The notes under the pieces: model-generated
Told to the model about the DNA's origin: nothing
Database searches by the model: none
What the model saw: the letters and a program-made list of their open reading frames with translations, nothing else
In this document: one piece after another, positions 1 through 62,001 of the stretch
Position numbering within the stretch: position 1 is the stretch's first letter
Layout of the letters: each line of letters starts with the position of its first letter
Program-made: the position numbers and the translations under genes
From: Streptomyces sp. CB02056
GTDB taxonomy: Bacteria > Actinomycetota > Actinomycetes > Streptomycetales > Streptomycetaceae
DNA length: 64,000 bases
Assembly (NCBI RefSeq): GCF_001905545.1
Contig: NZ_LIPD01000014.1
Location: forward strand, 1 to 64,000
Reading direction: 5' to 3'

Positions 1-1073
1 ACCCCCACAGACAGCCAACCCGCCCCGACCGGCACACACTTACTGTCCCACGCCCAACCCAACCGACTTCGCCAGCAGAGTCATCCAGCCGACTTTCCGT
101 GCTTCGAGTCCGAGTGCGGTTCCTGCCGGCGAGGCTTCCAGCACGCCCCCCAAGCGGTGCCCGCGCAGGAAGTCGGCCTGGCTGACTTCTCATGTCCTGC
201 TCCAGTGACCCTGCTCGCCAGGCAGCGTATTGCCAGGGCTTGCTTCGCTTGTGCCGCGCTATCTGTTTGGCCTCGGCGCGAGCGTCCGGAAGCAGCCCAC
301 CCCGGCTGCGCGCAGGAAGTCGACCGCGCCGACTTCCTGCACCCCATTCCCAGGTGTTGTCCATGGCGGTGTGGCCCCCGCTGCCGCGACGAACCGGCGA
401 GTAGCGCGCGGGAAGTCGATCCAGCCGACTTTCCGTGCTTCCTGCCCGAGCGCGGTTCCTGTCGTTCCGGCCTCCGCCAGGGCACCGAGCCGGTGTGTGC
501 GCGAGAAGTCGGCCCAGTCGACTTCTTGCGCCTCGCCCAGTGACGCTATTCAGTACGGGGCGTTTGGTTGGGGGCCCGCTTCGCTGGTGTCCGGCTCGCA
601 CTTCAGGCGGGCGAGCCCCGGTTGATGTCGGCGGAGCCGGGGAGGGTCCTTCCGCCTGGGTGTGCGTGGGAAGTCGATTGAGCCGACTTCTCGTGCGCTT
701 GGAGGGTGGGATTTCCGTGTGTGGGCTCCCGGTCTGCTCGCGAATTGTCCGTCGGCCTCGGCGCGGTCGTCCGGAGGCCTGCCGCGTATGCCTTGGGGTG
801 GTGGTTCGGGCGGACCGGTTGCGCGGTGCTGGCGCCTGGATCGGCCCCGGCGGCTCCGGGGTTCGCTGCTTCAGGCCACATGTTGCGGCAAATGGCATCG
901 GCAGCGGCTCAATTTGGGTTCTGGGTCACGGAAAGTCGTCCAGAACCTCAACCGTTGGCCGACAAAACCGGTGCCTGTGTTGCCACAGGTGGGGAGCCGT
1001 TTCAGCTGCCGCGGCGGAAGTCGGCTGGCCCGACTTCTGGTGTCTCGCGGGGGTGGGAGGGGGTCGCTGCGGC
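1..1073. repeat. Gene-free region with a degenerate array of 21-bp palindromes
   Basis: No credible gene is seen in this 1.07-kb stretch; its base composition is less GC-biased at third positions than the genes that follow. It holds a repeated palindrome of form GAAGTC-N9-GACTTC at 169-189, 316-336, 412-432, 505-525, 670-690 and 1017-1037, plus a copy with one base deleted at 77-96 and a lone right arm at 65-70. The copy at 312-340 extends to an 11-bp perfect stem. Conserved bases continue outside the core (GYGC to the left, YGTGC to the right), and some flanks are also repeated: 97-135 resembles 433-470, and 269-290 matches 754-775 at 20 of 22 bases. The array starts at or before the window edge. 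A separate 7-bp inverted repeat lies at 918-924/940-946. Function is unknown. Confidence 0.8.
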
Positions 1074-2537
1074 TCACGGGACGGGGGTGGGGTCCGGGGC
1101 TGGTGTGGGGTGGGTGGTGCGGGATTCGGTGGTGTGGGCGGCGAGGGCGAGGAGGGCGCCGAGGAGGCAGAGGGCGGCGGCGGTGAGGGTGGCCCGGTCG
1201 GTGCCTGCGGCGAGGGTGTGGGCGGTGGGGTGGGGGGAGCCGGTGACGGTGACGGTGAGGGCCACGCCGAGGGCCGAACCCAGGTAGCGGGAGGTGTTGT
1301 TGGCGCCGGAGCCCATGGCGGCCCGGTGTGCGGGGACGCTGCTGACCGCGAGCCGGGCGAGCGCCGCGTTGAGGATGCCGCTGCCGATGCCCGCGACGGC
1401 GAGCCCCGGGGCCAGTCGCAGCCAGGACGAGCCGGGGGTGAGCCCGTACAGCGCGGCCTCGCCGGTGCCGCAGACGAGCAGGCCGAGGGCGACCTGGGCG
1501 GTGGCGGGCAGGCGGGTGGCCAGGTGGCGGGCCTGGAGCGCGGAGACCACCGAGAGGCCCGACCACAGGGCCAGCACGCCGGCCGCGGCCGGGCCGGACA
1601 GGCCGAGCACGCCCTGGAGCAGGGTGGGCAGGTAGCTCATGAAGCCGACCAGGGCCAGCCCGGTGAACAGCGCCCCGCCGGTGGCCGCGATGAAGCCGGG
1701 GCTGCGGAACAGGGCGAGGTCCAGCATCGGCTCCCGGACCTTCGCCTCGACCACGGCGAACGCCGCCAGCAGCAGCACCCCGCCCGCCAGCAGCGCCACC
1801 ACGGCGGGCTGTCCCCAGCCGCCGCGGCCTTCGGCCAGTCCGGCGATCAGGCAGGAGGTGCCGGCGGCGAGGGTGAGCACCCCGTACGGGTCGAGGGCAC
1901 GCGGGCGTTCGGCCCGTGACTCGGTGAGGACCCCGGCGGCGCAGCCGGCCACCACGGCGGCGGCCACCGCGATCCCGCCGCTGACCGCGCGCCATCCGGC
2001 CCACTGCTGGACCAGGGCGCCGTACACCGGCCCGATCGCGATGCCCAGCCCGACCGCCGCGCCCCAGATGCCGAGCGCCCGGATCCGGCCGGGACCGGGC
2101 GGGTGGGCGTGGCTGATCAGGCCGAGCGCGGGGGCCAGGACGGCGGCCGAGGCGGCGCCGAGGAGTACCCGGGAGGCCAGGTAGACGGCGCCGCCGGGGG
2201 CGAGGGCGGCCAGCGCCTCGGCGGCGGCGAACAGCAGCACGCCGAAGGTGAAGACCCGCTTGCGGCCGTGGTCGTCGGCGGCGCTCCCGGCGGTGAGCAG
2301 CAGCGCCGAGATGCCGACCAGGGTGCCGGTGAGGATCCAGGTGCGGCCGGAGGCGCCCAGGTGGGCGGCCTGGGCGGTGGCGGCGAGCGAGGCGGTGGGG
2401 GCGGTGTACGCGACGGTGGTCAGGGCGGTCGCCGCCGCGGTGGTCGCCAGCGTGGCCCCGGGCCGGACGCGCGGGCCTGGGGTGGTGGGGGTGGTGGGGG
2501 AGGAGGCGGGTGAGGAGCCAGGTGGTGCGGGGGGCAT
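1074..2537 (-). CDS. MFS multidrug exporter, DHA2 (EmrB/QacA) type
   Basis: A 487-residue major facilitator predicted to expel small hydrophobic compounds by proton antiport across the cell membrane. After a Pro/Thr-rich N-terminal tail of about 25 residues the protein is almost entirely hydrophobic, with about 14 membrane segments, the number typical of the DHA2 group. A motif A-like loop (GSAADDHGRKR, about residues 83-93) follows the second helix. The ATG at 2535-2537 was chosen because a GGAGGG ribosome site lies 7 bases upstream; an in-frame ATG 32 codons further out has none and would run through the operator. It is divergent from the HxlR regulator at 2660 and shares a 122-bp intergenic region with paired operators, so it is probably repressed by that regulator. 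Substrate unknown. Confidence 0.88.
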   Translation of the reverse strand: MPPAPPGSSPASSPTTPTTPGPRVRPGATLATTAAATALTTVAYTAPTASLAATAQAAHLGASGRTWILTGTLVGISALLLTAGSAADDHGRKRVFTFGVLLFAAAEALAALAPGGAVYLASRVLLGAASAAVLAPALGLISHAHPPGPGRIRALGIWGAAVGLGIAIGPVYGALVQQWAGWRAVSGGIAVAAAVVAGCAAGVLTESRAERPRALDPYGVLTLAAGTSCLIAGLAEGRGGWGQPAVVALLAGGVLLLAAFAVVEAKVREPMLDLALFRSPGFIAATGGALFTGLALVGFMSYLPTLLQGVLGLSGPAAAGVLALWSGLSVVSALQARHLATRLPATAQVALGLLVCGTGEAALYGLTPGSSWLRLAPGLAVAGIGSGILNAALARLAVSSVPAHRAAMGSGANNTSRYLGSALGVALTVTVTGSPHPTAHTLAAGTDRATLTAAALCLLGALLALAAHTTESRTTHPTPAPDPTPVP

Positions 2538-2659: not shown

Positions 2660-3205
2660 ATGGCCCTGGGAACCGACTACGAACTGCAGGAGTGCGCGCT
2701 GGCCCGCGCCCTGGAGGTGGTCGGCGAGCGCTGGAGCCTGCTGATCGTGCGCGACGCGTTCTACGGTGTGCAGCGCTTCAACGACTTCCTCGCCCACCTC
2801 GGCATCCCGCGCGCCGTCCTCACCTCGCGCCTCAACGCCCTGGTCGCGGCCGGGGTGCTGCGCAAGGAGCCGTACCAGCGGGCGCCGCTGCGCCACGGCT
2901 ACCTGCTGACCAGTGCCGGCCTCGAACTCTGGGGCCCGCTCTACCAGTTGAGTCGCTGGGGCGGCCGGCACGCCACCGAGGGGGGTCCGTACCACCTCTT
3001 CGCGCACGCCGTCTGCGGCACCGACCTCGACCTCGTCGGCGTCTGCCCGGCCTGCGGCGGCGGGCCCGTCCCGCCGACCGCGGTCGTCATGCGCCCCAAC
3101 CCCGCCCGGGCCGGCGGCCACCGCGAGGACCGGGTCTCCCGCGCCCTGGTCCGCCCCCACCCGCTGCTCGAACCGATCGCCTCGGCGGCGGTGCTGCCCG
3201 GCTGA
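2660..3205 (+). CDS. HxlR-family winged-helix transcriptional regulator
   Basis: A 181-residue regulator. Residues about 10-100 match the HxlR fold: the family signature around CALARALEVVGERWSLLIVRD near the start (Cys near residue 9), then the recognition helix region ending in GIPRAVLTSRLNALVAAGVL and a wing. The C-terminal part contains a CPACGGG motif that could bind metal or act as a thiol sensor, not present in the shortest family members. The ATG at 2660 follows a TAGGCT -10 box by 7 bases, so the message is probably leaderless; an upstream in-frame ATG at 2624 falls inside the promoter. It likely represses the divergent exporter and itself through the two operators between them. Confidence 0.85.
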   Translation: MALGTDYELQECALARALEVVGERWSLLIVRDAFYGVQRFNDFLAHLGIPRAVLTSRLNALVAAGVLRKEPYQRAPLRHGYLLTSAGLELWGPLYQLSRWGGRHATEGGPYHLFAHAVCGTDLDLVGVCPACGGGPVPPTAVVMRPNPARAGGHREDRVSRALVRPHPLLEPIASAAVLPG

Positions 3206-61140: not shown

Positions 61141-62001
61141 TCAGCGCTTGATGGCGACGCCGCCCCAGTAGTAGGCGGCCTTCGGGTCGGCCGGGGGCTC
61201 GCCGTCGGGGCGCCAGGCCAGCACAGGGGCGACGCCCGGTTCGACCAGGTCCCAGCCGTCGAAGAAGCGGACGACGTCGTCGTAGCCGCGCGGCACCAGG
61301 GTCATCCCGCCGGCCCGGGCGGCCTCGGCGACCTTGCCGACGGCCTCGGGGTCGAAGTCCGGGGTGGGGGTGGTCAGGGCGATGCAGCTGCCGGCGGGCA
61401 GGGCGTCGCGCAGTGCGGCGACCCGGCCCCAGGGGTCGTCCTCGTCGGCGATCAGCATCAGTACGGCGATCATCAGCAGGCCGACGGGCTGGGTGAGGTC
61501 GAGGGTGGCGGTGAGCGCCGGGTCGGCGAACAGCTCCTCGGGCTTGCGCAGGTCGGCGTGGATGTAGGTGGTGCGGCTGGCCGGGCTGGAGACCATCAGG
61601 GCGCGGGCGTGGGCGAGCACGATCGGGTCGTTGTCGACGTAGACCACCCGGGTGCCGGGGCTGACCGCCTCGGCGATCTCGTGGGTGTTCGGCGAGGTCG
61701 GGATGCCGGTGCCGAGGTCGAGGAACTGGCGGATGCCGTGCTCCTGGGCGAGGTGGCGCACGGCCCGGCCCTGGAACGCCCGGTTGGCCTTGGCCATCGC
61801 CTTGACGCTCGGTACGGCCTGCTCGATGGCCTGCCCCATGGCGCGGTCCGGCGGGAAGTTGGTCTTCCCGCCCAGCCAGTAGTCGTACACGCGCGCAGAG
61901 TGCGGGGCGGTGGTGTCGACACCGAAGCGTTCCCACTGGCTGAGCTCGGTGGCGTCGTCGTCCTGCGGGCCCTGGCGGGGGGAGTCCTGACTTGTCGTCA
62001 T
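61141..62001 (-). CDS. SAM-dependent methyltransferase, PF04672 (DUF574) type
   Basis: A 286-residue methyltransferase of the large streptomycete family PF04672. Family blocks: HSARVYDYWLGGKTNFPPDR at the N-terminus, FLDLGTGIPTSPNTHEIAE (SAM site), VVYVDNDPIVLAHARAL, and DPWGRVAALRDALPAGS. Substrates are mostly unknown. ATG at 61999-62001 with GAGGA 8 bases upstream. It is divergent from the deacetylase gene. Confidence 0.93.
   Translation of the reverse strand: MTTSQDSPRQGPQDDDATELSQWERFGVDTTAPHSARVYDYWLGGKTNFPPDRAMGQAIEQAVPSVKAMAKANRAFQGRAVRHLAQEHGIRQFLDLGTGIPTSPNTHEIAEAVSPGTRVVYVDNDPIVLAHARALMVSSPASRTTYIHADLRKPEELFADPALTATLDLTQPVGLLMIAVLMLIADEDDPWGRVAALRDALPAGSCIALTTPTPDFDPEAVGKVAEAARAGGMTLVPRGYDDVVRFFDGWDLVEPGVAPVLAWRPDGEPPADPKAAYYWGGVAIKR

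Follow-up and report, generated by a model that had tools for sequence, protein, structure and literature searches.

The palindromes crowded into the left end of the window (the whole stretch of 64,000 nucleotides of Streptomyces sp. CB02056 that was analysed, its genome being referred to here as G000) form one array of a hairpin family that is restricted to a single Kitasatospora clade and that is REP-like but corresponds to none of the repeat families that turned up in a search of databases and open papers. On balance, we favor a reading of the sequences in which this is a dispersed family of 3'-end hairpins that would end or insulate transcripts and whose core would be read by a factor of that clade. 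The array is not the basic unit of the family; at most loci genome-wide there is a single copy behind a stop codon.

The first 1,037 bases of the window contain five exact copies of GAAGTC-N9-GACTTC, one near-exact copy, and one decayed copy. A pattern scan places the exact cores at 169-189, 316-336, 505-525, 670-690, and 1017-1037, and the core at 412-432 ends in GACTTT, so that the six same-core copies and the decayed one described in the first-pass annotation are all in place except that one of the six carries a mismatch. Core matches with up to two mismatches number eight in the window versus 1.36 ± 1.25 in shuffled sequence, and eight was reached in 0 of 100 shuffles. The family model recovers all six copies with E values from 4e-10 to 2e-5, namely copy 1 at 160-198 (33.8 bits), copy 2 at 307-345 (45.7 bits), copy 3, the one with the mismatch, at 403-441 (33.5 bits), copy 4 at 496-534 (46 bits), copy 5 at 661-699 (39.4 bits), and copy 6 at 1008-1046 (30.8 bits). 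The last of these lies 36 nt behind the stop codon of a gene for an MFS-type transporter (1074-2537, minus strand), whose 3' end faces the array and which is the syntenic anchor in relatives; it is adjoined by a gene for an HxlR-type regulator (2660-3205, plus strand), both genes being called and then named from sequence alone. The decayed copy at about 77-96 reads AGAGTC-ATCCAGCC-GACTTT, with a spacer one base short, and matches the copy at 412 together with the flank of that copy. It stands at the start of a duplicated block (83-526) in which positions 83-190 and 419-526, at an offset of 336, are 75% identical, and the sharing of some flanks noted earlier is therefore real and results from local duplication. 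The codon-usage gene caller calls no gene in positions 1-1073, in agreement with the description of the array as lying in a gene-free stretch. The arithmetic behind the spacing by multiples of three holds for six right arms, yet the interval after them is 347, and in ten other arrays just 7 of 32 intervals are divisible by three; with no gene called and the frame pattern absent from other arrays, the suggestion of a decayed repeat gene is dropped. The array is possibly cut, since window position 1 is also the start of its contig (C6). A weak family-model match at window positions 61846-61876 (17.7 bits, E 0.03) is possibly a further decayed copy. A plasmid origin was considered and rejected, there being no PLSDB match.

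In the genome of the window the exact pattern GAAGTC-N9-GACTTC occurs 113 times and its reversed control not once, which upholds the view that this is a real palindromic repeat family and not a word at chance frequency, and 110 copies fit the stricter GAAGTCG-N7-CGACTTC. With the stricter pattern, the carriers among 69 other Kitasatospora genomes have from 7 to 97 copies and the non-carriers have none, apart from one genome with a single copy, and about 230 genomes from other genera of the taxonomic family have 0 or 1 site each and at most 2. A covariance model applied to 16 genomes with 0-1 exact copies gave no match in 15 of them and two weak matches in the remaining one. In a meaB tree of 31 genomes the carriers all fall on one side of a branch, equivalent to one change, on the basis of a single gene and weak branch support (60/39). 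Carriers among the matches listed in a collection-wide pattern scan include K. aureofaciens, K. xanthocidica, and Streptomyces sp. CB01881, and the matches listed are otherwise mostly unrelated single ones; the five that were checked outside the taxonomic family are all inside genes and chance-like. One 21-mer, GAAGTCGGGTGAGCCGACTTC, is identical in a genome of another genus (G120:C3:47896) and in the carrier G050 (G050:C1:245962, locus L026), where it lies between genes resembling priA and a neighbour, and this may represent either transfer or chance.

Searched for in the genome and its relatives and mapped relative to genes, the core turns the array into a local cluster of a genome-wide family behind stop codons. 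The position analysis covered the regions around 99, 54, and 23 sites in three genomes, with gene boundaries from a home-made codon-usage caller, and the copies there are almost all intergenic. For single copies the median distance to the preceding stop codon is 25 nt, and half of the hairpins lie 16-45 nt behind stop codons. Gaps that hold sites are convergent in 58 cases, tandem in 61, and divergent in 11, where intergenic length predicts 15.5, 52.8, and 61.7 (p 2e-35). Of the 59 single copies in tandem gaps, 52 are closer to the 3' end of the upstream gene. First-match loci in further carrier genomes mostly follow the same pattern. At the cobA locus (G000:C29:344898-344918) the facing gene has a stop codon that overlaps the right hairpin arm, and the same is seen in G008, G012, G062, and G066. 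A partner gene beside the arrays was sought by eye and rejected, the flanking genes at shared loci being varied and mostly resembling ordinary metabolic, regulatory, or housekeeping genes.

The repeat unit is an inverted repeat of about 35-39 nt with an outer stem of 6-8 bp, inner arms GAAGTCG/CGACTTC, and a loop of seven, and in a set of 172 distinct copies the pairing extends past the core for about 6-8 bp. Watson-Crick pairing at the outer positions -1 to -6 is present in 72-83% of these copies, and at -1 to -5 this is above the 44-63% expected from column composition; pair -6, a near-invariant position, has no pairing excess, and the loop pairs have neither pairing excess nor covariation. 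In 73 aligned copies, cells changed on both sides number 124 versus 66 in shuffles and the covariation score is 0.257 versus 0.157 in shuffles and 0.06-0.13 in slid versions, and these two measures and the share of paired cells all exceed every one of 500 shuffles, which ignore relatedness, and all slid versions. Of the two places in which a test for covariation had been suggested, the outer stem shows it and the loop does not. The inner arms behave differently, with 172 distinct intact copies versus 15 with one-sided changes and 1 with a compensated change. The one-sided changes in the core and the compensated changes outside it therefore indicate that sequence is kept inside and pairing outside. 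Core position 8 (G or A) varies independently in the two half-sites. As RNA the hairpin has a median stability of -29 kcal/mol over 41 nt, and the 8-40 nt after the core contain no T-rich tract (12-13% T). The hairpin RNA array offered as one option earlier fits best as far as the hairpin is concerned, because the outer stem covaries, but the sense strand does not prefer G-U over A-C (35 versus 41) and so gives no indication of selection acting on the sense RNA, which leaves an RNA role putative. For generic tandem hairpins the counts are 17 and 8, which is not significant.

Most of the sites in G000 and G004 are not common to both, and one shared array has seven, four, and two copies in three genomes. 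In the convergent gap between marR and meaB, the GAAGTCG hairpin occurs in 3 of 15 readable carriers (G004, G012, and G016) and in decayed form in G001, and in many other genomes this gap holds a strong but unrelated hairpin, and in some it holds none. In the gap between cobA and a sensor kinase gene, 14 of the 20 carriers with a readable slot have an intact core and two more (G011 and G016) a decayed one, and the outer stem is exchanged with compensation between GGAGTGG/CCACTCC, GGAGCAG/CTGCTCC, and GGGGTGG/CCACCCC. The carriers G007, G038, G042, and G046 have in this slot a hairpin of another family with the core CTTTGCAAA/TTTGCAAAG (e.g., L377:1501 and L380:1501 and 1589). At the locus of the window, where the transporter gene is syntenic, the number of copies behind it is four in G004 and G051, three in G035, two in G027 and G031, one in G012, G017, G019, and G022, and zero in G016, G041, and G062, and in G012, G017, G022, G027, G035, and G051 the hairpin closest to the transporter follows its stop codon at a distance of 0-10 nt. 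When the arrays of the window and of G004 are compared, hairpin units of 27-47 nt align and the spacers do not. Because relatives have 0-4 copies near the transporter stop codon, and because of the internal duplication at offset 336, the window array is consistent with a founding hairpin that stood at the end of the gene and was later duplicated locally, and we propose that arrays such as this one would arise in the same way.

Position, stability, and replacement by other hairpins in the same slots are the reasons for assigning the family a 3'-end function, and the hairpins are probably terminator or other 3'-end elements. We propose that the copies would end or insulate transcription, in both directions where they lie between convergent genes, and would shield mRNA 3' ends as the other hairpins in the same slots would. 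These roles leave the conservation of the core to be explained separately, most simply by a factor that reads the sequence; the inner core would be kept because this putative clade factor reads it, and the same factor may also account for the spread of the copies. The family has a zone of conserved sequence cleanly split from a zone of conserved pairing, lacks both a tag and a RAYT, and belongs to a large genus of antibiotic producers, and it therefore offers a way to study the gain of 3'-end hairpins and their exchange among species, and the means by which GC-rich bacteria without T tracts end their transcripts.

A stable hairpin shortly behind a stop codon is also what an intrinsic terminator provides; the Kitasatospora repeat differs in that it has a sequence core common to about 100 sites and in the missing T tract, because of which it is not a textbook intrinsic terminator. 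Bacterial stem-loops in general prefer convergent gaps and the first 50 bp after a stop codon (PMC1590033), and what sets the repeat apart is therefore its shared conserved core and not its position alone. Inverted DNA-uptake sequences, which are thought to serve as terminators in Haemophilus, Pasteurella, and Neisseria (PMC1590033, PMC2267715), share with the repeat a short conserved word that forms a hairpin as an inverted pair. This analogy was rejected, as single arms outside hairpins occur at only 1.05-1.18 times expectation (for GAAGTCG, 304 observed versus 276 expected on both strands of the examined loci). Consistent with the earlier statement that no family with this core has been described, Rfam gave no match up to E 1 in window positions 1-1300 and no description of the GAAGTCG/CGACTTC core was found in open papers.

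REPs with a GTAG (or GTGG) tag at one end are tied to RAYT transposases, which two inverted copies flank, and their reported hosts are Proteobacteria, Cyanobacteria, Chloroflexi, and the PVC group; the REP catalogues consulted deal mainly with groups other than Actinobacteria (PMC2817692, PMC3733652). Like them, the Kitasatospora repeat consists of palindromes of 20-40 bp, with about 100 copies per genome, that are intergenic, near 3' ends, mostly in convergent and tandem gaps, and sometimes clustered. Unlike them, it has no GTAG tag and no RAYT association, is symmetric without head or tail, and has a variable outer stem. GTAG at the fixed offset of -4 reaches only 17 counts over 172 copies, as one of many outer stems, and a Y1 transposase (PF01797) is present in 22 of 76 genomes and does not track with the carriers. 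With no conserved tag and a transposase that does not track with the carriers, the family is not a GTAG/RAYT REP, and Y1 transposase was rejected as the driver of spread on the latter ground. In G000 there is one partial Y1 transposase match (G000:C1:591328-591564), about 4 kb from the nearest repeat copy. The CGTC-tagged REPs reported in Proteobacteria, Chlorobi, Bacteroidetes, Spirochaetes, and Thermotogae (PMC3733652) share with the repeat short 3'-end palindromes without a dedicated transposase, but the repeat has no CGTC at a fixed or preferred offset. The family could still be a non-autonomous mobile palindrome of REP or MITE type, copied by a transposase that recognises the hairpin, with the 3'-end position being simply where insertion is tolerated, and the high copy number in one clade, the turnover at orthologous sites, the two-zone hairpin, and the fact that one or more other hairpin families also use these slots would all suit this. 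We nevertheless find it doubtful, in that only a minority of carriers have the Y1 transposase and several genomes with 79-89 copies lack it, the constraint on the core is far above that expected of relics, and identical copies are rare (160 distinct 33-mers among 172). There is also no target-site duplication, with direct flank identity near the shuffle level at offsets 6-15 and raised only for 2 nt at offsets 6-8, inside or beside the stem, and the idea of MITE target duplications was rejected for this reason.

Two further explanations are each less probable than a mobile palindrome. The near-invariant symmetric 7-mers in a fixed 21-bp geometry, together with the independent half-sites at core position 8, are what a dimeric regulator or nucleoid protein bound to double-stranded DNA would lead one to expect. 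The outer halves change together, however, which is unexpected for independent half-sites, and a location behind genes with scarcity between divergent genes is the opposite of promoters, making this very unlikely. Nothing speaks for the partition or nucleoid sites suggested earlier, since the repeat is tightly linked to gene 3' ends and depleted between divergent genes. To an origin of the covariation in mutation, with template switching in quasi-palindromes keeping the arms complementary without selection on structure, we give similarly little credence. The lack of a wobble preference on the sense strand is in its favour, and the pairing may accordingly reflect a function at the DNA level or have arisen by mutation, but neither the loop nor the flanking sequence beyond about 8 bp has been perfected, and mutations in the core are mostly one-sided and uncompensated.

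Returning to 3'-end hairpins with a core-reading factor, a more specific form would be that a clade-specific protein reads the GAAGTCG/CGACTTC core in hairpin form and, at about 100 loci, sets where transcripts end or insulates convergent genes, the family spreading without a RAYT. We put this forward only tentatively and consider it unlikely in full. Because close relatives differ in whether they carry the repeat, looking for the partner factor is practical. If such a clade-specific 3'-end system exists, the CTTTGCAAA/TTTGCAAAG family, which shares these slots, would be a second example. Matches to its pattern number 49-50 in G007 and G046, 14 in G038, 7 in G042, 5 in G027, and 0-1 in most genomes, and its core presumably resembles a RamB-type motif. 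A single CTTTGCAAAG pair, 17 bp apart, is present at L370:1501-1527 (G004:C1:6592823) and in many other Kitasatospora genomes; in G004 it lies 37 nt upstream of a peptide-deformylase-like gene and looks like an operator.
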